Shown one piece after another: positions 3,858 to 19,409 of a stretch of DNA of 64,000 bases. The notes under the pieces are model-generated. The model did no database searches. It saw only the letters and a list, made by a program, of their open reading frames with translations, and was not told the DNA's origin. A program made the position numbers and the translations under genes. The number at the start of each line of letters is the position of its first letter. The stretch's first letter is position 1. The DNA is from Methylobacterium jeotgali (GTDB taxonomy: Bacteria; Pseudomonadota; Alphaproteobacteria; Rhizobiales; Beijerinckiaceae). Location of the stretch: positions 1-64,000 of the forward strand of contig NZ_BPQR01000016.1 of the NCBI RefSeq assembly GCF_022179345.1. The letters are read 5' to 3'.

Positions 3858-4225
3858 ATGACCACCGAGCAGATCCGCGTGACCCTCGGCGGCAGCATGG
3901 GCAATGTCGGCCACAGCTCCGCCGGGACCTCAGCGACATCAAGAGCCGCTGCCCGGACCGCCTGCGCCGGTTGGGCTTCGAGTGCCTGTTCTGGTTCTGC
4001 GACTGCCTCGGGCAGGACCCGAGCCTCGCCATGCAGGGCCTCATCCTCCCCAAGGCTGGACGGCCGGAGTCGCGCCGCCCGAACCTAGTCCGGGGCGGGG
4101 GACGCATCCCCTCCAGCCCGGAGTGGCCGCGCCGGGTGCCTGTAGGCTGCCGAGTTCGGCGGTTCCTAAACCTCAGCGGGGGCCTCGCCCCCGCTGCTGG
4201 CGGCTGGGGCTGGGGCTGGGCTTAG
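3858..4225 (+). pseudogene. possible frameshifted remnant of a small gene
   Basis: Two frames here look coding for short stretches. One starts at ATG 3858 and reads MTTEQIRVTLGGSMGNVGH. The other continues from about 3910 with QLRRDLSDIKSRC, DRLRRLGFECLFWFCDCLGQ and DPSLAMQGLILPKAG. Joining them by one frameshift near 3905 gives a plausible small protein, while neither frame alone does. The rest of 3588-4165 shows nothing convincing. This may be a decayed gene or chance composition. Confidence 0.25.
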
Positions 4226-6334
4226 TGCCGGCAACGCCACCGCCGTCGGACCCGCTGGCTTGGCCGCCGCGGCGGGCGCGGCCCCACCGCCCGTCAGGAC
4301 GAAATCGATCTCGAACGCGTTGCGCCCGACGGATGCCAGGTAGTTCGAGAGGATGTCGGCCGCGAAGGGCTCGCGGATGCGGCCACAGCGGATCAGGCGC
4401 CACGTGACCCGCGCGGGAACGTGCGGCGGCCGTCCCTTCGCGGCCTTGGCAGGCTCGAAGCCGCCGACGGCGACGTTCTTGAAATCGTCCGGGGACGCGA
4501 CGGCAAGTAGCAGGCGCCGCGCGACGGCGCCGTGCGTGGATGCCTGGTCCTTATAGGCATCGCGAAGCCGTTCGATGGCGGCTTCCATTTCGGCGCGCAG
4601 GTCCGCCGGCGGCTCGGCGGGGGACGCCTCGACCGAAGCGGGCCCGTCAAGGGCGGACGCCGCGTCCGGCGTCGCGGGCGGCGGTTCCACCGGCGGGGCG
4701 GCGGGAGCGCCCGGAACGGCATCCCCGGCGTTCGCGGCGAGAACCGCGAAGGCGGCCTCGGGCACGGGCGCGGCGACTGGCCTGGGGCGTGCCGCAGCCT
4801 TCGCCGCGGCGACCGCGGCCGCCGCCCGGGCCGCCTTGTCCTCGCAGGCCGCGACGTAGTCCGACAGCCAGCCGGTCCGCTCCCCGTAGATGCGGACCTG
4901 CCCCGGAAGGAGCCCGGCCGGGCAGGCCTGCCCCTTGTCGAAGCGAACCGCGCCGTCGCTGCGGAAGGAGGCGAGATCCATGATCGAGAGGTCCACGGTC
5001 GCCGGGTTACGCAGGTCGACGACCGGAGTGACCCCGTCCAGGGTGCACTGCAGGACGTATTGCTTGGCGCCGGTCTTCTCCTCGCCCGGCTTGGGCGGTG
5101 CCTTCAGCGGCAGCAGGATGCCGGTGCGCGCTCCGCGCTTCCCGTTCGGACGCAGCCCGATCTCGCAGGCCTGCCCGATCAGCACGAAGCGCTTCCTGGC
5201 CATTTGCTTGTTGGAGAACTCGGAGAGATCGAGCTCGAAGACGTCGCCCGACGCGATGGGCGCGAAGGAGGCATTGATGAGATCGGCCTCCTCCCACGTC
5301 TCGGCGTTGCGGAATGCGACCAGGTCTTCGTCGGGGGGAGCCTCTACGGGAGCGAGCTTGATGCCGCGCAGCGCGCGCAGGCGTTCGCTGCTCGCGCGGA
5401 CAGTCTCGTCGGTCGCGAACATGCTGCGCATCTTCTGGGCCATGTGGGCCGTGAGGGTTCTCTCAAGCACGTGAAGCTCGGAGACGCCTTCCTCGTATCC
5501 CCGCTCGACGACGTGAGCGTCGAGCCTTTCCGGAGGGATGCGGAGCAACCTGCCGCGGGCGTCCTCGAACCATCTCGGCACCTGCGGTGCGGCCTTCGTC
5601 AGGACCTCGTGGACGCCGCGACGCAGGCCCGCCCGCTTGATGGCGACCCGGAACGCCTCCTCCATGACCTCCGTGTCTGGATCCCTGCCCGCGAGCCGCT
5701 GCTTGGAGATCACGCACAGGGGGATGTCCTCGTCGGGCTCCAGCCCCATCCTCAGCTCGACCTCGGTCTTGCCCTCGTTGGCGATGACGGTCTCGTGCGT
5801 GAGGATGAACGCCGTGCCCCGGGAGCCCTCGGTGGCCAGGACCTTGAGGATGTCCATGCCGCGCGTGACGAGCGAGCGCGTGCCCCGGCTTTCCTTGAGG
5901 TCGACGATATAGCTGACGTTCCCGTCGCCTTCTCTGACGATGTCCCGGATCTTTTGCTCGACGCCGTCGAAGGTCCACCGGTCCTTGTCGGCGATGGCTA
6001 GGAGGGAGCAGGCGCGTTCCACGGCTGCGGTCGAGAGCTCGTCGACCGGGAATCCCTCGACCGCCTTCTCGACGTCGAAGAAGATGGCCTTCACCTCGTC
6101 CCGGCGGTCTTCGCGCATGTCCGTCAGCGCCTGCACCAAGCGCCCCTCGGTCGCCTCGGGCTCAAACTCGTCCCGTTCGAGCAGGTCAGCGAATTCCGGG
6201 ACGCCGGAGACCTTAACCTTCTCAAGGTTGGCGATGAACATCGTCGCGAGCTGCGCCGGCGTGTCGTTGAAATGGTCATCGATCCAGATGACGCGGGTGC
6301 CGCCGAGGCAATGGAGTGCTGCTTCAAGCTTCAT
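4166..6334 (-). CDS. receiver-domain protein with long unknown output region
   Basis: This 722-residue protein begins with a divergent receiver domain: VIWIDD (D19, D20) for the acidic pair, YIVDLKES (D145) as likely phospho-acceptor, FILTH (T179) and ISKQRL (K211) for the conserved Thr and Lys. About 100 extra residues sit between the first strand and the phospho-acceptor strand, unlike a CheY fold. Residues 215-510 form an unrecognised globular region. About 510-595 is an Ala/Pro-rich linker and the last 110 residues another unrecognised domain. It is the third gene of an operon, 16 bases after the GHKL kinase-like gene, its likely phosphodonor. I recall a separate receiver family (Response_reg_2) found beside such ATPases in conflict loci, which fits. 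The output function is unknown. Confidence 0.7.
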   Translation of the reverse strand: MKLEAALHCLGGTRVIWIDDHFNDTPAQLATMFIANLEKVKVSGVPEFADLLERDEFEPEATEGRLVQALTDMREDRRDEVKAIFFDVEKAVEGFPVDELSTAAVERACSLLAIADKDRWTFDGVEQKIRDIVREGDGNVSYIVDLKESRGTRSLVTRGMDILKVLATEGSRGTAFILTHETVIANEGKTEVELRMGLEPDEDIPLCVISKQRLAGRDPDTEVMEEAFRVAIKRAGLRRGVHEVLTKAAPQVPRWFEDARGRLLRIPPERLDAHVVERGYEEGVSELHVLERTLTAHMAQKMRSMFATDETVRASSERLRALRGIKLAPVEAPPDEDLVAFRNAETWEEADLINASFAPIASGDVFELDLSEFSNKQMARKRFVLIGQACEIGLRPNGKRGARTGILLPLKAPPKPGEEKTGAKQYVLQCTLDGVTPVVDLRNPATVDLSIMDLASFRSDGAVRFDKGQACPAGLLPGQVRIYGERTGWLSDYVAACEDKAARAAAAVAAAKAAARPRPVAAPVPEAAFAVLAANAGDAVPGAPAAPPVEPPPATPDAASALDGPASVEASPAEPPADLRAEMEAAIERLRDAYKDQASTHGAVARRLLLAVASPDDFKNVAVGGFEPAKAAKGRPPHVPARVTWRLIRCGRIREPFAADILSNYLASVGRNAFEIDFVLTGGGAAPAAAAKPAGPTAVALPALSPAPAPAASSGGEAPAEV

Positions 6335-6350
6335 CGGTCGCTACGCGGGC

Positions 6351-9011
6351 TCATTGCGGCTGGGCGAGTACGGCGGTCAGGTCCACCTCGAACCGGTACC
6401 GGCGTCCGAGGTGGTTGAGGTCGTCCAGCAGGTCGACGGTGCACCCGTCGAGGGCGAGGAGCTGGCGGACGATGAAAAGCCCGATGCCCTGGCCGCCGGG
6501 CGATTGCCCCTCCGGCGCGGCGGGTCGCCCGGATACGAAGATCTCGAACAGACGCTCCTCGACGGCGGGATCGACCCCCGGTCCCGTATCTGACACGATG
6601 AACCCCCCGTCGGTGACGTCGATGCGGACCTCCTTGGCGGGCAGACCCTCGCCCGTGATGCCCCCGCGCCTCAACCAGTAAACGCTGTTGCGCACGAGAT
6701 TATCGAGCACCTGCAGGAGGCGGGACCGGTTGGCGCGCACAATTGCGGCCCCGGGCATCTCGTCCACGACGGCGACGATCCCGGCGTGCTCGAAGGATAT
6801 CGCCCGGTTCTCCACGTACTCCCGAACGAAATCCGCGACGGCGAAGGTTTCCCGAAGCGTCCGGGAGCGGGGCAGCATGGGGTCGATCAGGGAGGCCGCA
6901 TTGGCGATGGCCCCGCACGAGCCGCGGATGGACCGCAGGTGCGGGAGCATGGCGGCCTCGTTGCCGGATTTCCGGGCGGCGTCCTGGATGGCCTTGGACC
7001 GTTGCTGGATCTCCGCCAAGTGCGTCCGGAGCTCATGCGCGAGACCGCGCGCGCTCAACCCGACGGCGGCGCTCTCGTATAGAGCCGTGACCTGGGCGTC
7101 CTTGTCGGAGATCTCGCGGCGCAGGAAGTCCACGGCGTCGGCGGGTTCGACCTGCGGGTCGAGCTTGCTCCGGACCGCGTCAACCGCGTCGCGTGCGGTC
7201 TTGGCCAGTTCGACGGCCCGCCAGGCGGTCCGGCCGGCGTCACCGCTGTCGATGACCTCCCGTTCGAGCGCCTCGATGTCGCTCCGCAGGTCCGTGACCG
7301 TCTTGTCGGCCAGGGACCTAGCGTCGCGTGCGGTCTGCATGCTGCGCTCGACGATGCGCATCGGGTTGCCGGGCCGTGCGAGTTCCTCGCGCCCGGTTTC
7401 CTGGAGCTTGCGGGCGTATTCGTCGAGCGAGCGCCGCACGTTGTCCATCGCGTCGCTGGAGAACTTGCGGCATTGGCGGGCGATCTGGAGGAACCCGCGG
7501 TAGGGCGCGTCCTCGACGAAGCCCTCGCGGTCGGACTTCTCGGTCAACCCCGCGTTGAACTCGCCGCTCAGCGCGAAATAGCCGATGGTGTTGTCCGTTC
7601 TGAGCCCGTAGGTGCTGCCGGAGGTCATTTCCGCAGACAGGCCGAGCCAATCGCCCGGCGAGCGGACGCGGAACCCGTCGCGAAGCACGGCGATGCCGGT
7701 CAATCCCTTGATCAGGTCGGAGGAGATGCCGATGCCGGCCGCGGCCGACTTGTCCGCCTCGTCCTGACGCTGGAGATGGAAGTAGTAGAACGAGCCGGTG
7801 AATGGGCCAGGGTCCTCGATCTTGCCCTCGTTGTCCATCAGCATGGCGGACCAGGGGAAGCGCCGTTCGAGCTCCACATACCAGGGGCCGGTGTCCGAGA
7901 CGTCCTTGCGCGTATAGCCCTTGAGCTTCTTCGGCGAGAGCAGGAGGTCGCGGAATCCTTTGCCGCCGTCGCGGCCGAAGACTAGCGCAGTCTTCTCCCG
8001 TTGCTGTTTCGAGCGCTCGCCGGCGATCAGGCGCTTGCGCATGTAGGCGGTGGCAACGAGCTCCATGTCGCCCTGCCCGTCCGCCTCCCACCGGAAGTCG
8101 AACTTCGCGATGGCCCTGTCGAGGATCTCGTTCGTCACCGAGACCAGGGAGCGGTCGCGGCCGTCGAGCTGGATCGACACCGGGAACGTCGACGTGACCT
8201 CGAACGGCGAGACGAGCTTCGCAAGGCTCGCCGTGATCTCGTCGATCCGCCGCGGACGGCGCCATTCGGGCAGGTCCTTCAGCCCGAGGACGGTGACCTT
8301 CGTCCCCTTGAAACCCTCGGCGTTCGGCCTGCTGCCGAACTGGACGGGGATCTGGTCGACCGTGACGGACCGCTCGCAATCGGCCCAGCGGAACCGGGCG
8401 ACGGCGATGTCGTCGCCCGTAGACTTGGCGGTCTCCACGAGAAGGATGTCGCCGATCTTCATGGTGCCGAGGCGCCCGAGCCCCTTGTCACCGAGCGGCG
8501 TACGGTTCTGGAGGGTCGTCTTCCGCTTGGGCTGGCCCGGCAGGCCTCGCTTGACCGACCCGCTGACGACCAGCCAGGAAGACCGGAGCTGGTCCTGCGT
8601 CATGCCCTCGCCGCGGTCGGTGATGGTCATGCGCCCAGTGTAGGACAGGCGGCGCTCGCACATCGGCTCGGGCGTCTCGTCCTCGGGCTCCTCGTCCCCG
8701 TCGCGTTCGTCGGCTGGCGGCAAGGGTACGATCTCGACCTGGACGCTTTCCGCCGCCGCATCGAAGCGAGCCAGCCTGGAAACGGGCCCGACCTCGACCA
8801 GCGTACCAGTTTCCTGCGTCGCCACCTCGATGCCGCAGCCCTTCGCGTCGGCGTCGTACGCGTTCTTGACGCATTCCAGGATCGCCTGCTCGACGTCCGT
8901 TACCAGCTCGCTGCCCAATTGGATCAGCACGTGCGCGCCGACTCGGAGCTGGGCCCCGCCTACGGGGTGCGCGACCTCGCCGGAACTGCCCGGTACCATC
9001 TGGTCGCTCAC
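6351..9011 (-). CDS. dual-GHKL protein: N-terminal Hsp90/MutL-type ATPase plus C-terminal histidine kinase
   Basis: This 886-residue soluble protein holds two ATP-binding Bergerat modules. The first has an N-box ECVKNAYDAD (N50), TDRGEGM (D132) and GDKGLGRLGT (about 174-183), as in HATPase_c_3/Hsp90/MutL proteins, followed by a substrate-domain-like region to about 540. The second looks like a histidine kinase. After a coiled coil (560-645) come H659 in GLAHELRTHL, the N-box DNLVRNS (771-775), SDTGPGVD (D808) and GGQGIGLFIV (839-848). No membrane segment or PAS domain is visible, so the N-terminal ATPase may be the sensor. The GTG start at 9011 overlaps the methyltransferase stop (GTGA), and the receiver gene follows. 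Phosphotransfer to that receiver is inferred from layout and conserved residues. Confidence 0.8.
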   Translation of the reverse strand: MSDQMVPGSSGEVAHPVGGAQLRVGAHVLIQLGSELVTDVEQAILECVKNAYDADAKGCGIEVATQETGTLVEVGPVSRLARFDAAAESVQVEIVPLPPADERDGDEEPEDETPEPMCERRLSYTGRMTITDRGEGMTQDQLRSSWLVVSGSVKRGLPGQPKRKTTLQNRTPLGDKGLGRLGTMKIGDILLVETAKSTGDDIAVARFRWADCERSVTVDQIPVQFGSRPNAEGFKGTKVTVLGLKDLPEWRRPRRIDEITASLAKLVSPFEVTSTFPVSIQLDGRDRSLVSVTNEILDRAIAKFDFRWEADGQGDMELVATAYMRKRLIAGERSKQQREKTALVFGRDGGKGFRDLLLSPKKLKGYTRKDVSDTGPWYVELERRFPWSAMLMDNEGKIEDPGPFTGSFYYFHLQRQDEADKSAAAGIGISSDLIKGLTGIAVLRDGFRVRSPGDWLGLSAEMTSGSTYGLRTDNTIGYFALSGEFNAGLTEKSDREGFVEDAPYRGFLQIARQCRKFSSDAMDNVRRSLDEYARKLQETGREELARPGNPMRIVERSMQTARDARSLADKTVTDLRSDIEALEREVIDSGDAGRTAWRAVELAKTARDAVDAVRSKLDPQVEPADAVDFLRREISDKDAQVTALYESAAVGLSARGLAHELRTHLAEIQQRSKAIQDAARKSGNEAAMLPHLRSIRGSCGAIANAASLIDPMLPRSRTLRETFAVADFVREYVENRAISFEHAGIVAVVDEMPGAAIVRANRSRLLQVLDNLVRNSVYWLRRGGITGEGLPAKEVRIDVTDGGFIVSDTGPGVDPAVEERLFEIFVSGRPAAPEGQSPGGQGIGLFIVRQLLALDGCTVDLLDDLNHLGRRYRFEVDLTAVLAQPQ

Positions 9012-10354
9012 GCGAACTCCACGACCAGCGTCGTCTCCGTGTTAATCAGGCTTCCCATACTGTTGCGGGTCGGCATCCGTTTCCCGGGCAGGCGACGCCG
9101 CAGGCCGGCGACGGGCTTGCCCCCGAGATAGCACATGATGTCCCGGCAGATCTCGTCCAGCGCGACGGGCATTCCGTGGGCGGTGCGGTTCCCGGTGGTG
9201 ATCACCCAATGGGCGGCGCCGGGAGTGGTCGCACGAACCTGCGCGAAGGCGTCGAAGAGGTCGGCGACAAAATTCGAGACCTTGCGCAGGCCGCGGCCCT
9301 TCCCAGCGGAATGGGCGCTGGCGACGAGGCGGTCGAGGGTGGGCGAGATGCCGACGATGCGCTCGCCGTTGGCCTTGGCGGTCTTGAGGGATCCGCCGAG
9401 GCTCGCGGTGTCGAGCGCGAATGTGTTGCTCCGAAGGGTGTCGCTTCCCTTGAGGTCCTCGGCCGGTATCCAACGGACCGCGAGGTAGGAGAACTGCCCG
9501 TAGGGAATCGTCGTCTGGTTGTCGCCGTAGGGCGGCGAGGTGACAAGGATACGGTGACGGTCGTCCTTCGTGCCGATGTCGGCCCGGCGTACGTCGTCGC
9601 ACAGGATACGGATATCCGGGTCGCTCTCGGGGCGGCCGGCGATGAGGGCCTGATAGTCGCGCACTCGTTGCAAGGTTTGCCGGAGCGCGCCCTCGAAGTT
9701 CGCGACGATGCGCTCCGGGTCGACCCGGTCGCCCTCGGGCCGCATGTGCAGCTTGTAGGTGCTCGTCCGGCTATTCGAGGAGACCCTGATGGTCTCCGCG
9801 AAGACCGTCCACATTACCTTGCGCGCCGGCTGGTCGGGAACCGCGAGGATCGAGCGGCGCAGGCGCGAGAGGCACCGGGCCGCCGGCTCGTCGAACCACT
9901 TCGAGAGCCATGGGAAGTCGACGTCGACGGTCTCGACGATGTCGCTGCGCAGCGCCTGGATCGTAGTGACGGCCGCGCGCTCGACGTTGGCGCCGGCGTC
10001 GATGGCGGCCTTAGCCTCGCAGGTGAGGACGGCGAGAGGGTTGATGTCGACGCCGGTGAAGTCGAGCCCGCGCAGGAGGGCCTCGGTCATGATGGTCCCG
10101 GAGCCCACGAAGGGGTCCACGACCCGGGAGCCGCCGGTGCCGACCTCGTCGAGGATGGCGTCGATGATGTCACCTTGCATGCACGGGACCATCATCGCGG
10201 GATAGCGCAACATGCCGTGAAGGTTGGGACGGGCACTGCCGCCGACCGCGGCCCACGCCGCCGGCTGATTGTCCTCCATGGTCCGGAGGCGATCCCCCAA
10301 CGTTGCCGCCACGATTCGGTGTCTTTCCACGCTGCCCCAGGGCGGGAATGCCAA
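9008..10354 (-). CDS. DNA methyltransferase (N4-cytosine/N6-adenine type)
   Basis: The AdoMet-binding motif is DPFVGSGTIMTEA (about 80-92), followed by FTGVDINPLA. The catalytic motif is TSPPYGDNQ (about 272-280), the S/D-PP-Y signature of amino-methyltransferases. The order (AdoMet site before catalytic motif) is not the beta-class order. Length is 448 residues if it starts at TTG 10354; ATG 10279 (MEDNQPAAW) is a reasonable alternative, so the start is uncertain. It is the first gene of the operon, overlapping the dual-GHKL gene by 4 bases. No restriction nuclease gene is recognisable beside it, so any host-DNA marking probably serves the kinase/receiver partners. The target sequence cannot be read from the gene. 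Confidence 0.85.
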   Translation of the reverse strand: MAFPPWGSVERHRIVAATLGDRLRTMEDNQPAAWAAVGGSARPNLHGMLRYPAMMVPCMQGDIIDAILDEVGTGGSRVVDPFVGSGTIMTEALLRGLDFTGVDINPLAVLTCEAKAAIDAGANVERAAVTTIQALRSDIVETVDVDFPWLSKWFDEPAARCLSRLRRSILAVPDQPARKVMWTVFAETIRVSSNSRTSTYKLHMRPEGDRVDPERIVANFEGALRQTLQRVRDYQALIAGRPESDPDIRILCDDVRRADIGTKDDRHRILVTSPPYGDNQTTIPYGQFSYLAVRWIPAEDLKGSDTLRSNTFALDTASLGGSLKTAKANGERIVGISPTLDRLVASAHSAGKGRGLRKVSNFVADLFDAFAQVRATTPGAAHWVITTGNRTAHGMPVALDEICRDIMCYLGGKPVAGLRRRLPGKRMPTRNSMGSLINTETTLVVEFA

Positions 10355-11638: not shown

Positions 11639-11974
11639 ATGCCCAAGACCCGTCCCGCATACCCCGCCGAGTTCCGCCGGCAGATGGTCGATCTGGTCCG
11701 TGCCGGCCGCGATCCCACCGACCTCGCTCGCGAGTTCGAGCCCGCACGCCAGACCATTCAGAACTGGGTCGCTGAAGCTGATCGCAGTGAAGGTCGACGG
11801 GAGGCCAAGCCGCCACCCGCCGATCCTGGCCTGACAGCGACCGAGCGTGACGAGCTCGCCCGGCTCCGGCGGGAGGTCCGGCAGTTGAAGCTTGAGCGCG
11901 ATATCCTCTCTCGCGCGACGGCCTGGTTTGCGCGGGAGACCGGGGTTCTGCCATCGGGGTCTTCCGGTTCATGA
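11639..11974 (+). CDS. IS3-family transposase OrfA
   Basis: This 111-residue protein has an N-terminal helix-turn-helix (YPAEFRRQMVDLVRAGRD, then DLAREFEPARQTIQNWVAEA) that would bind the IS ends. A leucine-zipper-like tail (LARLRREVRQLKLERDILSR) is typical of IS3 OrfA. Its stop overlaps the orfB start (ATGA at 11971-11974), and orfB lies in the -1 frame. I see no clear A-rich slippery run, so termination-reinitiation may matter more than frameshifting here. Confidence 0.92.
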   Translation: MPKTRPAYPAEFRRQMVDLVRAGRDPTDLAREFEPARQTIQNWVAEADRSEGRREAKPPPADPGLTATERDELARLRREVRQLKLERDILSRATAWFARETGVLPSGSSGS

Positions 11975-12852
11975 GCGCCAACCGGGCCGACTTCCCCATC
12001 GCCGTCATGGCCCGCACGCTCGGCGTATCGAAGGCCGGATACTATGCTTGGATCGGTCGGCCCACCTCGATGCGGAAGGTGGCCGATGCCGCGCTGCTGA
12101 AGCGGATCCGCACCGTGCACCTCGGCTCGCATGAGACCTATGGCGCGCCGCGCGTCCAAGCCGATCTTCGGATGCAAGGTGAGCGGCACTCCCGCAAACG
12201 GATCGCTCGGTTGATGCGGGAAGCCGGCCTCGTCGGGGCATGCCACCGGCGCGGCGGCCCCGTCACGACGCGGCGGGATCGGGAGGTGAGGCCCGCCCCC
12301 GATCTCGTCGACCGCATGTTCTCGGCCGAGGCGCCGAACCGGCTCTGGGTAGCTGATATCACCTATGTGCCGACGGCTTCTGGTTTCCTCTACCTCGCCG
12401 TGGTGCTCGACGCCTTCAGCCGCCGGATCGTCGGGTGGGCCATGGCCCATCACCTCCGCTCGGAGCTGGTACTGGATGCCTTGGAGATGGCCGTCACGCA
12501 GCGACGACCGCACGAGGTGATCCACCACTCGGACCAGGGGTCGCAATACACCTCGCTGGCCTTCGGCAACCGCTGCCGGGAGGCGGGGGTGCGCCCCTCG
12601 ATGGGCTCGGTCGGCGACGCCTATGACAACGCCATGGCCGAGAGCTTCTTCTCGACCCTCGAATGCGAGTTGCTCGCTCGCCGCCGCTTCCGCTCTCAGG
12701 CCGAGGCCCGGATGGCGGTGTTCAGCTACATCGAAGGCTTCTACAATCCGCTGCGCCACCACTCGGCGCTCGGCTATTGCTCACCCATTGCGTTCGAGCA
12801 GGAAACCAAAAAAGCCACGTCCAGCCCGACCTTGATCAAGCAAGCCCCCTAA
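11971..12852 (+). CDS. IS3-family transposase OrfB (DDE integrase core)
   Basis: This 293-residue catalytic subunit has the HTH_21-like region HETYGAPRVQADLRMQG near residue 55. The rve core follows, with RLWVADITYVPT (first Asp), VIHHSDQGSQYTS (second Asp) and a catalytic Glu in DNAMAESFFSTLECELL. The C-terminus has the usual YIEGFYNPLRHHSALGY. All three acidic residues are present, so it should be active. Confidence 0.93.
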   Translation: MSANRADFPIAVMARTLGVSKAGYYAWIGRPTSMRKVADAALLKRIRTVHLGSHETYGAPRVQADLRMQGERHSRKRIARLMREAGLVGACHRRGGPVTTRRDREVRPAPDLVDRMFSAEAPNRLWVADITYVPTASGFLYLAVVLDAFSRRIVGWAMAHHLRSELVLDALEMAVTQRRPHEVIHHSDQGSQYTSLAFGNRCREAGVRPSMGSVGDAYDNAMAESFFSTLECELLARRRFRSQAEARMAVFSYIEGFYNPLRHHSALGYCSPIAFEQETKKATSSPTLIKQAP

Positions 12853-12899
12853 CCGTCCACCGAACCGGGGCAATCCCAGTGCGCGGGGCGTCGGCGTGC

Positions 12900-13070
12900 C
12901 TAAGCCGGCATGCGCAGGATGCCTTGGCTGCCGGCGTGGATCTCGGCGCCGGCACGTCCCAAGCCGCGACCTCGACCCTTTCGGACGGCTGCCTCGAAGG
13001 TGCGGTTGTTGGCCCGTCGGGGGCGGAGCTTGGCGGCGTGGGTTTCCCCGGTCTGGTGGGCGTGGCTCAT
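12900..13070 (-). CDS. possible small basic protein
   Basis: A 56-residue minus-strand frame starts at ATG 13070 (MSHAHQTGETHAAKLRPRR) and stops at 12900. It is rich in Arg, His and Gly, and its third codon positions are strongly G/C. There is no clear ribosome site. A competing plus-strand frame (12910-13095) ends in a GTGA overlap with the DUF7220 gene, so the coding strand is uncertain. It could be a leftover fragment beside the IS. Confidence 0.25.
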   Translation of the reverse strand: MSHAHQTGETHAAKLRPRRANNRTFEAAVRKGRGRGLGRAGAEIHAGSQGILRMPA

Positions 13071-13091
13071 CCCGGCGAGGGAGCCGGTCGC

Positions 13092-13307
13092 GTGAGCCAG
13101 TCCCGCCGCATGTCGCTGGCCGAGACCGTCGCGAACACGGGCAGCGGGATGCTGATCTCGTGGCTGATCGGCCTCGTCGTCTACCCCGCCTTCGGCTTCC
13201 CCGTCGGCGCCGGCCAGGCCCTCGCCCTGACCGCGATCTTCACCGTCGTCAGCGTGGCCCGGGGCTACGCCTGGCGCCGCGCCTTCGAGCGCTTCCGGAG
13301 GTCCTGA
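13092..13307 (+). CDS. small membrane protein, DUF7220-like (phage type)
   Basis: This 71-residue protein starts at GTG 13092, 8 bases after a GAGGGAG ribosome site. The N-terminus SQSRRMSLAETVANTGSGM, a hydrophobic segment (LISWLIGLVVYPAFGF) and the tail FTVVSVARGYAWRRAFERF match a small two-helix membrane protein common in alphaproteobacterial phages (remembered as DUF7220). Its role is unknown. It overlaps the following kinase gene (TGATG at 13305-13309), so the pair is co-translated. Confidence 0.8.
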   Translation: MSQSRRMSLAETVANTGSGMLISWLIGLVVYPAFGFPVGAGQALALTAIFTVVSVARGYAWRRAFERFRRS

Positions 13308-14293
13308 TGTTCCTGCCCCGCCTGATCGGCGTCGTCGGCCTGGCCGGCGCCGGGAAGAGCACCCTCGCCGGCATCCTGCAGCGCGAGCACGGCTACGAGC
13401 GCCAACGCCTCGCCGCGCCCCTCAAGGGCATGACGGCGGCGTTCCTGCGCTCGGCCGGCCTGCCCGAGGCGGAGGTCCTCGACCGCGTCGACGGCGGCCG
13501 GAAGGAGGAGGAGATCCCCGGCTTCGGCTGCACCACCCGGCACGTCATGCAGACCATCGGGACCGAGTGGGGCCGCAAGTGCGTCGGCGGCGACGTCTGG
13601 CTCCGGCTCGCCCGGGCCCAGGTCGAGCGGGCCTGGGGCGAGGGCAAGCGCGTGGTCGTCGACGACGTCCGGTTCCTGAACGAGGCCGACGCCATCGAGG
13701 CGATGGGCGGGTTCCTCATCCGCGTCGACCGCCCCGGGCTCGTCGCCGGGTCGCACCCGTCCGAGCAGGAACAGGCCCGGATCGTGGCCCATTGGACCGT
13801 CCGAAACGAGGGCGACCTGATCGACCTGGAGACGGCGTTGACCTCGGCCTTCGTCTTCGCCCGGCACACGGCCGGCATCGCCGCTTGGCGAACCCCCAAC
13901 GGCGGACGCCATTTCAACAACGCCTTCGCCCACGCCCTGTTGGTGAAATCGTTGGGGGCTACGGCGAAGTTGTCGCAGGCCGGCCGACGACGAATGTCAC
14001 TGTCGGTGCGATTTCGCTGTTGTGGGTTTCCCCCCGCACACGCGGGATGCCGCCGTGATGCTCAGCGGTGCTCACCAGGGGCCGCGGCGTGCCCACGGCG
14101 GCCCATCCCGCGACCGCCAGGCCGATGGCGCACAGGGCCCATGTCGTCGCGCACGTCCGGTCCATGGCGAGGTCCTCCGCCGGGGATGATCGCGGAACTC
14201 GGCCGGGGCGCTAGTCCAGCGGGGACGGTAGGCGGGCATCCTCGTCGGCCTGCGGAACGGTCTCGGTCGGGTTTCGGGCGAGGCGTGACATGA
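13307..14293 (+). CDS. phage-type deoxynucleoside monophosphate kinase, C-terminus doubtful
   Basis: The N-terminal 190 residues show a P-loop (GVVGLAGAGKSTLA, about 8-21) and RHVMQTIGTEWGRK, VWLRLARAQVERA, VVVDDVRFLNEADAI and HPSEQEQ. This pattern matches phage dNMP kinases of the T4 gene 1 type, which phosphorylate dNMPs to feed phage DNA synthesis. Such enzymes usually end near 190-240 residues. Here the frame runs to 328 residues, and the last 120 or so are Arg/Pro/Cys-rich and overlap minus-strand genes that have good ribosome sites. The true C-terminus was probably lost through a frameshift or deletion after about position 13930. Confidence 0.8.
   Translation: MFLPRLIGVVGLAGAGKSTLAGILQREHGYERQRLAAPLKGMTAAFLRSAGLPEAEVLDRVDGGRKEEEIPGFGCTTRHVMQTIGTEWGRKCVGGDVWLRLARAQVERAWGEGKRVVVDDVRFLNEADAIEAMGGFLIRVDRPGLVAGSHPSEQEQARIVAHWTVRNEGDLIDLETALTSAFVFARHTAGIAAWRTPNGGRHFNNAFAHALLVKSLGATAKLSQAGRRRMSLSVRFRCCGFPPAHAGCRRDAQRCSPGAAACPRRPIPRPPGRWRTGPMSSRTSGPWRGPPPGMIAELGRGASPAGTVGGHPRRPAERSRSGFGRGVT
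13959..14165 (-). CDS. small secreted or membrane-anchored protein
   Basis: This 68-residue protein starts at ATG 14165 with GGAGG about 8 bases upstream. The N-terminus (MDRTCATTWALCAIGLAVAG) looks like a signal peptide or anchor. The rest (HGGIPRVRGETHNSEIAPTV) is polar. It lies antisense to the doubtful tail of the kinase gene. It is the last gene of the minus-strand series from 19409. The family is unknown; short exported proteins in phage DNA are often lysis accessories, but nothing here proves that. Confidence 0.5.
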   Translation of the reverse strand: MDRTCATTWALCAIGLAVAGWAAVGTPRPLVSTAEHHGGIPRVRGETHNSEIAPTVTFVVGRPATTSP

Positions 14294-16210: not shown

Positions 16211-18790
16211 CTAGCGGACCAGGGCCGCGGCGGGCTCGGCGACGAGCCGGGCCACCTCGTCGCCGTCGAGCCTGCGCCGCTCGACCAGGGCGTCGGCGAC
16301 GCGGCGGACCGCGCCGGCGTGCCGGCGGACCGTGGCCAGGGTCTCGCCGTAGAGCCGGTCGAGGAGCTCCTGCACGTCCCGCCGCAGGAGGGGGTCCGTC
16401 GCCAGCGCCATCGACGGCTCCTGCTCGACCGCGACGAGGCCGCGGCCGCCCATCCCCCACTCGCCGATCAGGCCGACGGCCATGCGGGTCGCCGTCAGGA
16501 GGTCCTGGCGCGCCCCGGAGCTCGCGCTGTCGAGGAGCGTCTCCTCGGCCGCCCGCCCGCCCAGCATGATCCGGACGTGCTCCTCGACGGCGGCGCGCGT
16601 CCAGATGCCCTGGTGCGGGTCCTTGGCCGCCATCCATCCGCGCTCTTCGCCGCGCGTCTGCAGGGCCAGGACCATCTCCCGTCCGGGCTCCTCCAGGTAA
16701 GCCAGCAGGGCGTGACCGGCCTCGTGGACGGCGATCCGGTCGAGGACGGCGGCCGGGGTCGCCTCGTCGCCCGTGCCCGCCACCGCGAGCAGGTCGTCGA
16801 GGGCCAGCGGGCGCCCGGCATGCCTTGCCCGGCGGCGGGCGTCCTCGACGAGGGCCTCGATCATGGCCCCGGTGTAGCGCTCGGTCCGGTACGCGACCGG
16901 CATCAGGTCGGCGCCGGGCAGGTCGTCGCCGAGGCGCACGCGCAGCATCTCGACGCGCTCCCCGGCGTCCGGCAGCCCGATCTCGATGTGGCGCCCAAGC
17001 CGTCCCGGGCGACGGATGGCCGGGTCGATGCGGTTGGCGTCGTTGGTCGTCCCGACGACGATGACGCCTTCCCGGCCGCCCACGCCGTCCAGGCATTCGA
17101 GGAACGCGTTGATGATCTCCAGGACGTAGTCGGCGTGCGCGTGCCTGACGGTACGACGGTCGACGAAAACGTCGCACTCGTCGACAAGGACCAGGCATCC
17201 GCGCTTCCCGGCCGCCAGCGCCTTGGCCTCGGCGAAGAAGCGCCTCATCGCCCGCAGCGTCGTCCCGAGATGCGCCTGGTCCTCGGACTGCCACTGCGCC
17301 AGCGACGCGGCCAGGAGGGGAATCCCCGCGCTGGCGGCGATGGCCTGGGCGCCCAGGGTCTTGCCCGTCCCGGGTGGCCCGGACAGAAGCGCGCCGCTTG
17401 CGACCGAAGACCAGGGCGCACCGTCCCTCCACGCCTGGAGGTCGCGGATGACCTCGCGGCCGTACGCCACGACCTCGCGGCAGCCGTGGAGCTCGTCCAG
17501 CGTGATGTCCCGCCCGCGGCCCGTCGGCGCCGGCGGGGCCGCCAGGCGGACGAGATGCGCGACGCAGTCCGCCGGCGCCCGCCCGGGCCGGATGGACACC
17601 GCCAGGTGCTCCGCGGAGATGCGCAGCCCGTCGAGCGCGCGCCGGTCCTGGGGGGAGCAGGCGGCGCCCGTCGTCGAGCGGATCGCGGCGGCGACGTCGG
17701 ACGTGTCGATGGGGGCCAGCGTCAGGCGGTGCTCCGCCGCCAGCAGCGCCGCAGCCGGCAGATGGGACGCCGCGTCAGGCGAAAGGCACAGGATCGCGCC
17801 TGGATGCCTAAGCAGGGCCAGGAACTCGCACGCCCGCCGGTCCCGGTCGCTCCCCTTGGGCGCGTCCTTGACGAGGTGCTTCCGCAGTCCAAGCGGCAGG
17901 CCGAGCGCGATGCTCGACCTGCCGTCCAGGGCGAGGATCGACAAGGCCTCCGGGACGTCGACTGTGACGACGACGTCCCGTTCCGCGAGCGCCTGCCGCA
18001 GCCCCGGGACCGCGTCGAGCGTGCGGGCGAGCTGGCGGAGGACGGCGAGTTCGACGGGGGAGAGTGCCTCGTCGGCCGCGTCCGGAGCCTCCTCTCGGTT
18101 CACGCCCGCACGGTCGTCGTCCATCTCCTCGGCGTGCGTCGGGCGCGCCGGCAGGGCCGCCGCGTTCGTCGACCTCAGGAACGTCTTGGCGTGGACCTCG
18201 GCGATGCCCAGCGGGTCAGTCGGGTCGTAGAAGGGGACGATCTCCGGCAACGCGTCGTCGCCCCCCTCGTCGAGCAGCGCCGTTCCGGACGCGCGCAGGA
18301 CGAAGGCGGGGGCGTGCTCGCTCCCGCTCCGGGCGTAGGCCCACAGCGTGTCGACGAGGACCGGCGTCGCCGCGGCGTAGCCGAGCATGTGCAGATACAG
18401 CGTCAGGGCGTCATGCAGGACGGCGCGCGCCGGGGCGTTCACGCCGGGGATCTCCGGCGTCCAGAGCCCCATCGTACGCCACGTGGCCTCGGTGCGCCGG
18501 AGCGAGCCCCAGGCGAGGGACAGGGGCTCCAACATGGCCTCGTCGCCGGTCCCGGCAGGCGAGGCAAGCGTGTCCAGGCCGGACGCGTGCAGGGACAGGC
18601 AAAGGGCGGCGATAAACGCGTCGCCGCCGCATTCGCGCAGGACGGCCGCGCGGTTGCGGCGCGCCGTCGAGGGCGCGATGGCGAGGATGCGGGCTGAGAG
18701 GTCGCTGGGGATGCGGCCGCGGTGCAGTCCGGCCTGCCCGGCCAGGACGTGCTCAAGCGGCGCCGCACCCTTCGAGGGGGGCTGCTTCAT
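16211..18790 (-). CDS. soluble FtsH-like AAA+ ATPase with M41 zinc peptidase domain
   Basis: This 859-residue protein has an AAA+ module with Walker A GPPGTGKT (471-478), Walker B CLVLVDECD (532-540) and an arginine-finger region RRPGRLGRHIEIGLP (593-607). A C-terminal M41-type peptidase follows: HEAGH (689-693) binds zinc, and D763 in SSGARQDLLTAT matches FtsH's third ligand. Unlike FtsH it has no transmembrane segments. Instead about 430 unrecognised residues precede the ATPase, so it should act in the cytoplasm. Start ATG 18790 (MKQPPSKGAAPLEH) has only a weak ribosome site. It probably unfolds and degrades protein targets chosen by the N-terminal region. It leads an operon of small genes within the mobile region. 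Confidence 0.82.
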   Translation of the reverse strand: MKQPPSKGAAPLEHVLAGQAGLHRGRIPSDLSARILAIAPSTARRNRAAVLRECGGDAFIAALCLSLHASGLDTLASPAGTGDEAMLEPLSLAWGSLRRTEATWRTMGLWTPEIPGVNAPARAVLHDALTLYLHMLGYAAATPVLVDTLWAYARSGSEHAPAFVLRASGTALLDEGGDDALPEIVPFYDPTDPLGIAEVHAKTFLRSTNAAALPARPTHAEEMDDDRAGVNREEAPDAADEALSPVELAVLRQLARTLDAVPGLRQALAERDVVVTVDVPEALSILALDGRSSIALGLPLGLRKHLVKDAPKGSDRDRRACEFLALLRHPGAILCLSPDAASHLPAAALLAAEHRLTLAPIDTSDVAAAIRSTTGAACSPQDRRALDGLRISAEHLAVSIRPGRAPADCVAHLVRLAAPPAPTGRGRDITLDELHGCREVVAYGREVIRDLQAWRDGAPWSSVASGALLSGPPGTGKTLGAQAIAASAGIPLLAASLAQWQSEDQAHLGTTLRAMRRFFAEAKALAAGKRGCLVLVDECDVFVDRRTVRHAHADYVLEIINAFLECLDGVGGREGVIVVGTTNDANRIDPAIRRPGRLGRHIEIGLPDAGERVEMLRVRLGDDLPGADLMPVAYRTERYTGAMIEALVEDARRRARHAGRPLALDDLLAVAGTGDEATPAAVLDRIAVHEAGHALLAYLEEPGREMVLALQTRGEERGWMAAKDPHQGIWTRAAVEEHVRIMLGGRAAEETLLDSASSGARQDLLTATRMAVGLIGEWGMGGRGLVAVEQEPSMALATDPLLRRDVQELLDRLYGETLATVRRHAGAVRRVADALVERRRLDGDEVARLVAEPAAALVR

Positions 18791-18875
18791 CGGAAGACAC
18801 CGTGTTGGCCTTGGCGCGACAGGATCGTCACCTAGGCTGAGGAGCCCCCCTCTTAGCAGCCCATCCGTTAAAGGA

Positions 18876-19409
18876 TTATGAGTCCGATCCTTCGTCTGCG
18901 TTGCGCTTGAACGTTTTTCCCTTCCGGACGTCGAGGAGCAGGTCGAACGCGTTGGCGACGGCGCGCTTCGTGTTGCCCAGGGTCTCGAAGGGATTGTCGC
19001 CGCCCTCCGCGTAGCGGTCGGCGTAGAGGGCCAGGGCCGACAGCAGGGCGCCCATGCCGGGCGCATCGTATTCGTTCGCCGCGAAGGCCAGGGACCGCAG
19101 CACGACCGGGTTCAGCCCCTTCTTGGCGATCTTGTCCGGCTGGGTCGTGCGCCGGTTCAGGCCGAAGGCCAGCGGCAGCGCGTTCGTCCATCCCCCCGGC
19201 CAGACCTTCATGGCCGCGGCCGCGACGGCGTCGACGAGGGCCGCGTTGACCTCGGCGGGGTCGAGCGGCTCAGGACCGCCGTCCCCGAGGAGGAACGGCT
19301 GACGCTCCGGGTCGTAGGCGAGCGCCTGGTGGCCGACGCGCCCGACGACGGTCCATCCGGCGGGGCACGGCCACAGGTCGGCCGGCATGTAGTCGAGCAC
19401 GATCTCCAT
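18876..19409 (-). CDS. hypothetical protein at head of the protease operon
   Basis: This 177-residue protein starts at ATG 19409 with GGAGGGAC directly upstream, much better placed than the further-upstream starts. The N-terminal half has mixed sequence (MEIVLDYMPADLWPCPAGWT, ALAYDPERQPFLLGDGG). The C-terminal half is helical and basic (LRSLAFAANEYDAPGMGALL, TKRAVANAFDLLLDVRKGK). No family is recognised. It is first in the minus-strand series, about 55 bases downstream of two palindromic sites, and the FtsH-like gene follows after 85 bases. Confidence 0.65.
   Translation of the reverse strand: MEIVLDYMPADLWPCPAGWTVVGRVGHQALAYDPERQPFLLGDGGPEPLDPAEVNAALVDAVAAAAMKVWPGGWTNALPLAFGLNRRTTQPDKIAKKGLNPVVLRSLAFAANEYDAPGMGALLSALALYADRYAEGGDNPFETLGNTKRAVANAFDLLLDVRKGKTFKRNADEGSDS

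Follow-up and report, generated by a model that had tools for sequence, protein, structure and literature searches.

A recurrent methyltransferase, dual-GHKL histidine kinase, and response regulator trio in Methylobacterium jeotgali that may form a modification-coupled signaling defense

Pairs of a histidine kinase (HEF_HK, PF19191) and a receiver protein (Response_reg_2, PF19192) beside restriction-modification (R-M) genes were described by Bellieny-Rabelo et al. in 2021 (PMC8011034). In the portion of that report considered here, the pairs come from 628 strains, their function is given as unknown, and the authors propose signaling that controls R-M systems. Three other kinds of system are close in one respect or another. 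N-terminal GHKL ATPases are linked to DNA methyltransferases in enzymes of the paraMORC/BbrUII-HgiDII type, according to the sections of Iyer et al. (2008, PMC2292703) used here. Detocs is a defensive two-component system of three genes, the best described one having, in the excerpts of PMC11249213 and PMC10952713 consulted, a PNP effector that degrades ATP. Histidine kinases beside SspE have been speculated to regulate sspE expression (PMC7464106, in part), and Ssp loci without sspE in Acinetobacter baumannii may have a two-component system nearby (PMC12421847, in part).

The window analyzed here is a stretch of 64,000 nt from Methylobacterium jeotgali (NZ_BPQR01000016.1). The three open reading frames of the original prediction (9008-10354, 6351-9011, and 4166-6334) were confirmed, all on the minus strand and with their motifs intact. 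They encode an amino-type (N4/N6) DNA methyltransferase of 448 aa (9008..10354; TTG start), a dual-GHKL histidine kinase of 886 aa (6351..9011; GTG start), and an atypical response regulator of 722 aa (4166..6334; ATG start), in which the reading frame and a structure model indicate a receiver, a helical region, and a barrel output. The coupling predicted for these genes was read directly from the sequence: methyltransferase and kinase overlap by the four bases GTGA (9008-9011), and 16 bases (6335-6350) separate the kinase from the receiver gene. An IS3-type transposase adjoins this copy of the trio.

The trio recurs as a unit. The original prediction had left co-occurrence to a neighborhood search; kinase-anchored scans gave 15 new loci where the kinase is a close relative, every one with the other two genes adjacent, as in the three query loci, making the trio complete in 18 of 18 kinase-defined loci. 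A methyltransferase-anchored scan yielded three further trios, for a total of 21 loci. Gene order (methyltransferase, kinase, regulator, same strand) is kept in 19 of the 21, intergenic gaps, measured in 18 loci, lie between −35 and 57 bases, and pairwise protein distances correlate across the 21 aligned loci (Mantel 0.795, 0.911, and 0.777; each P = 0.0001). The trio kinases form one clade (SH-aLRT 100). One exception to co-occurrence was seen, a genome with a lone regulator remnant and no such kinase. The unit is rare, the regulator profile matching, among 398 genomes sampled from the phylum, only the window's own, and its distribution is scattered over phyla, with two copies on plasmids, five on viral contigs, and 13 of 21 on contigs of species genomes. 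No further conserved neighbor was detected among 155 ORFs around 18 loci (BLAST E of 1e-4), and an endonuclease was found neither in the trio nor, at these loci, as a conserved neighbor.

The original prediction did not recognize the system as named, but its kind already has a name, given the 2021 description of HEF_HK/Response_reg_2 pairs beside R-M genes (PMC8011034, in part) and the profile link of the trio regulator to them. In the available part of that description, the kinase has the same HATPase_c_3, DHp-like, and HATPase_c architecture near methyltransferases, and the adjoining receiver protein is without other known domains. The trio output region matched PF19192 proteins with a probability of 86.8 and an E-value of 4.3e-6 (a one-model E-value) over 158 columns, compared with 0.1 in all four reversed-alignment controls. 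The receiver parts are linked via other groups only, at E-values of 3e-8 and 9.6e-10 on the trio side and 1.6e-9 and 1.2e-10 on the PF19192 side; the trio regulator is also profile-linked to regulators beside related kinases. PF19192 itself was found in 0 of 16 trio regulators (Pfam, E up to 10). PF19191 was absent from the window kinase and sub-threshold in 5 of 18 trio kinases (best E of 0.043), with a model insensitive enough to find 3 of 65 other related kinases at an E of 0.001 and miss the remaining 62. Whereas a C5 methylase and/or Vsr accompanies the kinase in 53 of 67 other kinase loci, single-sequence profiles detected neither in any of the 18 trio loci, and the trio has an amino-methyltransferase throughout. 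On these sequence comparisons, the trio appears to be a distinct branch of the HEF_HK/Response_reg_2 kind, missed by the Pfam models. For the most part, the related kinases group according to the DNA mark beside them (amino-methyl, 5-methylcytosine, or phosphorothioate).

The amino-methyltransferase assignment was borne out by a PADLOC MTase_II match (E of 4e-68) and by retention of motifs I and IV; the Pfam N6_N4_Mtase model matched the window protein below threshold, and the same MTase_II models matched all 18 trio methyltransferases scanned. Motif I (DPFVGSGT, residues 80-87; 10094..10117, minus strand) has D80, G84, and T87 in 21 of 21 loci, as catalytic motif IV (SPPYGDN, residues 273-279; 9518..9538, minus strand) has SPPYGD. 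A profile of the trio methyltransferases detected six plasmid methyltransferases (E of 7e-80 to 9e-128), and an annotated MvaI/BcnI endonuclease adjoins the relative in four of the six plasmid neighborhoods fetched. Among 20 viral loci, shorter GHKL proteins adjoin family members in 6, and four of the five such proteins scanned matched the BbrUII/HgiDII restriction enzyme model N-terminally, below the cut-off. The trio shares its methyltransferase family with MvaI/BcnI type II R-M systems but has a kinase and a regulator in place of the endonuclease. Since relatives of the methyltransferase adjoin either these endonucleases or shorter GHKL proteins, the pair of kinase and regulator appears to fill the position of the restriction enzyme. 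Two further relatives (L171 and L190; 58 to 60% identical to the window's methyltransferase over the matched parts) have phage tail genes around them and neither kinase nor regulator; phages that use the mark for self-protection would be expected to show this arrangement.

These solo phage genes bear on the idea that the trio is an addiction module of a mobile element, in which loss of the methyltransferase would leave the chromosome unmarked, the kinase would fire, and segregants would be killed, with phage protection secondary. The scatter over phyla, the plasmid and viral-contig copies, and the IS3-type transposase next to the window copy all suit such a module, but most trios (13 of 21) sit on species-genome contigs, and phages carrying the methyltransferase relative fit a conflict with phages better. 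We consider the addiction reading quite improbable.

The kinase combines two ATPase modules, as the original prediction had it in naming an Hsp90/MutL-type ATPase and a histidine-kinase module. Pfam places HATPase_c_3 at residues 123-213 and HATPase_c at residues 761-861 (6429..6731, minus strand; E of 6e-15), and all 18 trio kinases scanned have the former N-terminally and the latter C-terminally. The N-terminal MutL/Hsp90-type GHKL module (approximately residues 22-215; 8367..8948, minus strand), a putative sensor, has N50, D53, D132, G134, G136, K176, and G177 invariant in 21 of 21 loci. It also matches the BbrUII/HgiDII restriction enzyme model below threshold, and matches of the kinase to restriction-enzyme models are confined to this GHKL part. 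The likeness to paraMORC/BbrUII-HgiDII enzymes lies in the N-terminal GHKL module and in a methyltransferase family that also pairs with such proteins, while the trio differs in having a histidine kinase core after the GHKL module and a separate receiver protein as effector. A linked nuclease domain or gene of the paraMORC type was not found by Pfam, NCBIfam, or PADLOC in the trio or by the BLAST search for conserved neighbors, GHKL being present. The predicted phospho-accepting histidine, H659 (7035..7037, minus strand), is conserved in 21 of 21 loci and is followed by E in 19 (E660 in the window) and by D in 2.

The first part of the regulator was modeled with AlphaFold2 as a receiver domain (approximately residues 8-245; 5600..6313, minus strand), and VIA-align superimposed residues 12-236 on the receiver domain 3eqz (Z of 9.2, rmsd of 3.4, 116 aligned). 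The insertion of about 100 residues noted earlier is present in the model as a helical segment after strand 1. Conservation of the receiver residues held for D19 of the acidic pair D19-D20 (6275..6280), the predicted phospho-accepting D145 (5900..5902), and the receiver lysine K211 (5702..5704; all minus strand), each in 21 of 21 loci; it was looser for D20, which is D in 20 and E in 1, and for position 179, which is T in 14 and S in 7. With H659, D19, D145, and K211 all invariant, the two-component residue set is complete.

The remaining 500 or so residues, earlier regarded as an unknown output, now resolve into three parts: a helical stretch, a barrel (predicted), and an insert rich in Ala and Pro. 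The output domain (approximately residues 356-673; 4316..5269, minus strand) is predicted from structure matches to be a MazF/CcdB-toxin-like barrel with a low-complexity insert (approximately residues 500-640), which is missing from the close relative L020. The regulator models are of moderate confidence (pLDDT of 68.7 and 72.2; pTM of 0.62 and 0.75), and the full-length model had the unrelated LRRK2 as its top Foldseek match (probability of 0.30). When the output domain of L020 was modeled alone, MazF/CcdB-type toxins made up 50 of 50 Foldseek and 50 of 50 VIA matches listed; among these, Foldseek probabilities reached 1.00 with all E-values above 0.001, target-normalized TM-scores of 0.37 to 0.48, and rmsd values of 12 to 14 in many, and VIA Z was 7.0 to 8.4. 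A sequence link to PemK/MazF was not obtained (hhalign probability of 0.7%, against a shallow alignment of 20 PemK proteins from 23 loci). A signature Q-x-C-(D/N/E/S)-...-R-...-R (residues 388-400; 5135..5173, minus strand) has Q388, C390, R395, and R400 invariant in 21 of 21 loci, as is D453. From a comparison by eye, we take these residues to have no obvious coincidence with the MazF active site. Compared with MazF/CcdB (PemK-like) toxins, the output domain would share a predicted fold but has large insertions, other invariant residues, and receiver control instead of an antitoxin; a common fold would also not by itself imply a toxin's activity.

The invariant polar set could instead belong to a DNA-binding domain or a novel nuclease, so that the kinase would gate restriction and the regulator would attack the unmodified DNA of an invader and not the cell, much as relatives of the methyltransferase pair with DNA endonucleases. 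The earlier observation that no nuclease is visible still stands, however, even with the barrel now predicted: no nuclease family matched above chance in Pfam, NCBIfam, or PADLOC for the window regulator or in Pfam or PADLOC for its relatives. The predicted fold is nearest to those of MazF and CcdB, which are not known to cut DNA, and we regard direct attack on DNA as improbable.

Another reading is a regulatory two-component system, an epigenetic switch in which methylation or nucleotide state would be sensed by the kinase, and the regulator would set the expression of the methyltransferase or of neighboring genes. It would suit the complete receiver, and it has precedents in the signaling control of R-M suggested by the authors of PMC8011034 and in the speculation on kinases regulating SspE in PMC7464106 (both in part). 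Against it, Pfam recognized no DNA-binding output domain in 16 regulators, only weak, scattered matches; the 155 ORFs around 18 loci offer no conserved neighbor as a target; and the prediction for the output domain is a barrel like that of toxins. We judge the switch unlikely while granting it some chance.

We take Detocs to resemble the trio in joining a kinase to a receiver-linked effector. No PNP domain was among the Pfam matches listed for the trio regulators, nor a Detocs model among the PADLOC matches listed for the trio proteins, and these listings do not place the trio in Detocs. The trio further differs in having a methyltransferase, which does not figure in the description of Detocs as excerpted from PMC11249213 and PMC10952713. 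Kinase-regulator pairs of a related clade lie beside phosphorothioation genes (L010, L011, L013, L015, and L019), with at least one of DUF4007, ATPase, PAPS-reductase, and cysteine-desulfurase as neighbors. They resemble Ssp/type-4 BREX systems that have a kinase next to them (PMC12421847 and PMC7464106, in part), where the mark is backbone sulfur rather than the base methylation of the trio.

The best reading of the trio, which these comparisons support, is a modification-coupled signaling defense. Specifically, we propose a defense unit with a phosphorelay where a restriction nuclease would otherwise be, ending in a toxin-like effector, and we see the chances for and against this full scheme as evenly balanced. 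The methyltransferase, whose catalytic motifs and family are evident, would mark host DNA at a short motif. The MutL-like GHKL module may then engage unmarked DNA or a DNA state produced by invasion, upon which the activated C-terminal kinase would phosphorylate H659, as its conservation in 21 of 21 loci suggests. The regulator's D145 would be next to take up the phosphoryl group, to judge from a receiver that has its full set of residues and from the closely correlated divergence of the two proteins. Phosphorylation could free the predicted MazF/CcdB-like barrel, which may halt the infected cell or the invader by, for example, cutting RNA or poisoning an essential target. Since the unit would act like an R-M system with signaling plus a toxin-like effector as its output, abortive infection is expected.

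New here are the barrel prediction for the output, the kinship of the methyltransferase with those of MvaI/BcnI systems, and the sorting of kinases by DNA mark. A broader proposal, which we hold tentatively and lean against, is that one and the same module of kinase, receiver, and output can be plugged in as the restriction arm behind amino-methylation, 5-methylcytosine, and phosphorothioate marks, with unmarked DNA triggering a His-Asp phosphorelay to a MazF/CcdB-like toxin. If true, such modification systems would punish via signaling and arrest of the cell, leaving the invader uncut. The defense reading of the trio, if right, would show that restriction-modification can run as a signal-transduction circuit and would add a second receiver-controlled defense beside Detocs. 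It could also account for phosphorothioation systems that are missing their nuclease, among them the Acinetobacter baumannii Ssp loci without sspE (as far as the source extends here), and would give HEF_HK/Response_reg_2-type kinase-receiver pairs a testable function.

Three adjoining ORFs lie on the minus strand of the window: a methyltransferase (10354 to 9008), a kinase (9011 to 6351), and a receiver protein (6334 to 4166). The first two meet in a GTGA overlap and the last two are separated by 16 bases, so the coordinates, strand, and junctions are those of the original prediction. Pfam placed two GHKL domains in the kinase and gave a weak N6_N4_Mtase match to the methyltransferase; the receiver protein had no Pfam matches above the cutoff. 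In a PADLOC and NCBIfam scan, type II methyltransferase models matched the methyltransferase (E = 4e-68), and the kinase N terminus resembled, below the cutoff, the GHKL portion of restriction enzymes of the BbrUII/HgiDII type. The methyltransferase is present in one copy in the genome. No sigma-70-type promoter was found, and terminator-like sites showed no excess over chance. Just beyond the operon is an IS3-type transposase pair (HTH_Tnp_1 and rve; window 11639 to 12852), followed by an ORF partly resembling deoxynucleotide monophosphate kinase (DNMK; 12896 to 14293) and, also outside the operon, a 951-amino-acid AAA ATPase that resembles FtsH and carries a peptidase M41 domain (16211 to 19066).

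This three-gene system is real and conserved. A kinase query made from a three-sequence alignment (the window, Hymenobacter plasmid L008, and Rhizobium plasmid L009) was scanned against species genomes and viral contigs; the best 80 of 322 relatives were kept from the species genomes, and trio frequencies are therefore lower bounds. Kinase E values fell into two sets with a gap between them, ≤7e-65 (13 genome loci and 2 viral loci) versus ≥1e-35. A methyltransferase and a regulator adjoined the kinase at all 15 loci of the low set and at the 3 query loci. The predicted co-occurrence of the three proteins was thus borne out at 18 of 18 kinase-defined loci, and a chance neighborhood was rejected on the same count. 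A methyltransferase-anchored scan yielded 20 viral loci, comprising 5 full trios (two already known), 1 locus cut by a contig end, 6 with the methyltransferase and a shorter GHKL protein, and 8 with neither partner among the genes listed (3 of these 8 at contig ends). Distinct full trios numbered 21. Three of them (L172, L173, and L177) were chosen for being trios and so add nothing to the co-occurrence count; L178 and L179 duplicate contigs L100 and L130 and entered the count once, and L174, with a kinase truncated at the end of its contig, was excluded. The L177 regulator was missed by the profile at an E value of 1e-4, yet it is adjacent and keeps the invariant residues. Start codons of five regulators (L021, L022, L027, L029, and L039) were reset downstream.

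The order and strand methyltransferase-kinase-regulator are kept in 19 of the 21 trios; the methyltransferase is convergent and downstream at L029 and downstream on the same strand at L030. Apart from the window, 18 loci are co-oriented, with intergenic gaps ranging from −35 to +30 and from −17 to +57 bases. A fourth conserved gene was rejected, with only two cross-locus pairs among 155 neighboring ORFs of at least 100 amino acids at the BLAST sensitivity applied (E = 1e-4). According to record labels, trio hosts belong to Pseudomonadota, Myxococcota, Bacteroidota, Balneolota, Chloroflexota, Actinomycetota, and Bacillota and include a nanoarchaeal MAG; several hosts are MAGs, contigs of which may be misassigned. 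The Hymenobacter monticola regulator (L008:11587-13383) is misannotated as "cytochrome P450." Among 398 genomes of the phylum, the regulator profile recovered the window's own copy alone, and searches of phage records with the regulator and with the methyltransferase each gave zero matches. A regulator search over 61 genomes gave a match in 2. The second of these, G056 (same order), holds a lone 330-residue output-domain remnant (L007:1480-2472), apparently a decayed regulator copy, and zero kinases matching beyond the common kinase core; a remnant lacking a trio-clade kinase counts against our reading of the trio as a modification-coupled defense unit.

Alignment of the 21 trios showed that the phosphorelay residues named in the original prediction are kept. 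The predicted phospho-accepting histidine, H659, and regulator residues D19, D145, and K211 are invariant (21/21), T179 is T in 14 and S in 7, and D20 is D in 20 and E in 1; the residue after H659 is E in 19 and D in 2. Among the other residues counted, also invariant are N50, D53, D132, G134, G136, G174, K176, and G177 of the kinase N-terminal module, N771, D808, G812, G840, G842, and G844 of its C-terminal module (Q767 in 20/21, G810 in 19/21), D80, G84, and T87 of methyltransferase motif I together with SPPYGD, and Q388, C390, R395, R400, D453, and G461 of the regulator output domain. Distance matrices of the three proteins were correlated (0.795 for methyltransferase-kinase, 0.911 for kinase-regulator, and 0.777 for methyltransferase-regulator; each P = 0.0001, 9,999 permutations), values that include shared descent.

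A model of the full window regulator (pLDDT, 68.7; pTM, 0.62) resembled receiver domains over about residues 8 to 245 and MazF/CcdB-type toxins over about residues 356 to 673, although an unrelated protein headed its Foldseek list (probability, 0.30). In this model the output domain carries the window regulator's Ala/Pro-rich insert; modeled alone and without that insert from the closest relative, Sphingomonas locus L020, it reached a pLDDT of 72.2 and a pTM of 0.75. For this model, 50 of the 50 Foldseek matches listed were MazF/CcdB-type toxins (best E = 2e-3; probability up to 1.00), with TM-scores by target of 0.37 to 0.48 and a global rmsd that was often poor. All 50 matches listed by VIA-align were likewise such toxins, with 93 to 108 residues aligned, nearly the whole toxin (rmsd, 3.0 to 4.4); their Z scores of 7.0 to 8.4 should be read with the tool's warning that the highest-ranked matches may reach 7 to 8 by background, and rank 50 still scored 7.0 versus the stated 4 to 5 at that rank. 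A few matches with titles such as YdcE, MoxT, and "toxin-antitoxin complex" are counted here as members of this toxin class. Profile comparison of the output domain with 20 PemK proteins gave no link (probability, 0.7), nor did its profile link to solved structures (best E = 6.1), and we take the invariant Q388, C390, R395, R400, D453, and G461 to show no obvious coincidence with the MazF active site. Because of the absent PemK link and these invariants, our claim is confined to the fold: the output domain is predicted by modeling to be a MazF/CcdB-like barrel, toxic activity lying outside the claim.

As for the other partners of METHYLTRANSFERASE, 28 plasmid records carry a relative of the window methyltransferase, the 2 trio plasmids included. 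In six further plasmid neighborhoods, an annotated MvaI/BcnI-family endonuclease lies nearby in four (L219, L220, L221, and L223), L222 has a 711-bp ORF of opposite strand that carries no name, and no endonuclease partner was seen in L218. On viral contigs, GHKL proteins pair with the same methyltransferase family; five of six such partners were scanned, of which four resemble the BbrUII/HgiDII model at the N terminus, below the cutoff, and the fifth matches Hsp90/MutL/kinase models alone. Since methyltransferase relatives adjoin either MvaI/BcnI endonucleases or GHKL proteins, the kinase-regulator pair seems to occupy the place that a restriction enzyme has in relatives. The methyltransferase profile resembled solved methyltransferases over short stretches alone; the SPPY motif fits N4-cytosine methylation and is not diagnostic. 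A solo methyltransferase whose matched parts share 58 to 60% identity with the window methyltransferase was found in a single metagenome sample on two contigs (L171:3-977 and L190:6211-6527), each ending within the gene. Its neighbors encode tail parts of a phage (tape measure, tail sheath, and baseplate), and kinase and regulator are absent from these contig stretches. It is possible that this gene, perhaps from a single phage, is a countermeasure to a mark-checking defense, against which phages would be expected to carry methyltransferases of this solo kind. The same methyltransferase family is present on a 355-kb viral contig (L187:7010-8284), with kinase and regulator not among the genes listed.

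Sequence comparison establishes the synteny, the catalytic and phosphorelay residues, the methyltransferase family, and the clade structure, and modeling predicts the receiver and barrel folds of the regulator. In the mechanism we propose, the methyltransferase would protect the cell's own DNA, the GHKL module would sense unmarked DNA, H659 would donate a phosphoryl group to D145, and phosphorylation would free a toxic barrel, with phage defense as the outcome. Elsewhere, GHKL modules of the MutL type clamp DNA in an ATP-driven step that is coupled to the activation of a partner, and a DNA-sensing role is therefore reasonable for the kinase N-terminal module. Readings of the trio as a regulatory switch or an addiction module, or of the regulator as an effector acting directly on DNA, are given lower weight than this defense mechanism.

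Neither PADLOC nor NCBIfam named a system for the trio. A catalogued PADLOC system was rejected on generic MTase_II and REase_II models and otherwise weak matches (LmuB, DruC, JetC, PDC, and AbiTi models); the REase_II matches, seen in 16 of 18 trio kinases (best E = 3e-13), come from the GHKL part. Pfam found PF19192 (Response_reg_2) in 0 of 16 trio regulators and PF19191 (HEF_HK) in 5 of 18 trio kinases, all subthreshold (best E = 0.043). Profile-profile comparison, in which E values are one-model values and four reversed-alignment controls gave a probability of 0.1, linked PF19192-family regulators to the trio output domain (probability, 86.8; E = 4e-6), trio regulators to phosphorothioation/FtsK-linked regulators (95.1; E = 3e-8), and the latter to the PF19192 family (96.3; E = 1.6e-9). 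At the profile level, this shows homology of trio regulators to both other groups. The suggestion that the kind had no name is therefore not supported, given this homology to a kind described in PMC8011034. The trio is a clearly delimited branch of a published, functionally uncharacterized kinase-receiver kind, and the branch itself is new. No report of a functional test of the trio or related regulators, or of a toxin-like output, was found in a search lying outside bioRxiv and most subscription journals. The DefensePredictor paper (PMC13092281) names HATPase and REC in one figure legend, and PMC12137116 mentions paraMORC, its subject being other systems.

A quick tree of 91 kinases, labeled by neighborhood, held kinases from 18 of the 21 trios and placed those 18 in one clade (SH-aLRT, 100) and eight plasmid kinases in a second (SH-aLRT, 100); three further kinases branch near these two. 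Five of the eight have Ssp/type-4-BREX-like genes as neighbors, and the remaining three adjoin different genes (FtsK in two). At the five (L010, L011, L013, L015, and L019), the pair adjoins at least one of DUF4007, SspC-like ATPase, PAPS-reductase, and cysteine-desulfurase genes, as if the kinase-regulator pair were the effector of phosphorothioation systems. PMC12839542 describes DUF4007, ATPase, and PAPS-reductase as common to Ssp and type-4 BREX. Earlier hints of the phosphorothioation association exist: for A. baumannii Ssp, which lacks the sspE nuclease, PMC12421847 names a region with a two-component system as a possible site of that gene and suggests a new variant, and PMC7464106 speculates on expression control by kinases beside SspE.

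The remaining large group holds 62 kinases, of which 52 have a C5-methylase or Vsr in the neighborhood, and is sorted imperfectly (10 label changes). A C5-methylase and/or Vsr was found at 53 of 67 loci in the distant genome set and 0 of 18 trio loci, with C5 and Vsr profiles each built from one sequence. Identity of this group with the Pfam HEF_HK family was rejected; PF19191 matched 3 of 65 kinases at an E value of 0.001, and the group is therefore wider than that family. Small regulator profiles found a published-type regulator at 2 of 67 loci. For 57 of the 65 kinases (L032 to L099), an ORF of 300 amino acids or more on the same strand starts by the kinase's end, and 54 of the 57 fall into two receiver-like clusters (33 and 21 loci); an N-terminal D-D or E-D motif can be seen in many of these proteins. 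They are short, about 340 to 560 amino acids as read, and the PF19191/PF19192 models mostly miss them. The cluster of 21 matched trio regulators (probability, 96.5; E = 1e-9) over 344 columns that extend to the end of the output domain, and it also matched PF19192-type regulators (97.0). The cluster of 33 was clearly linked to phosphorothioation/FtsK-linked regulators alone (89.5; E = 2e-6), with no clear link to trio regulators (5.9). The tree, the neighborhoods, and the downstream receiver clusters therefore indicate a kinase-receiver module that recurs with different DNA marks. The profile matches support the presence of the trio's exact output domain within part of the wider group, and the effector hypothesis reaches that part of the wider kinase-receiver family.
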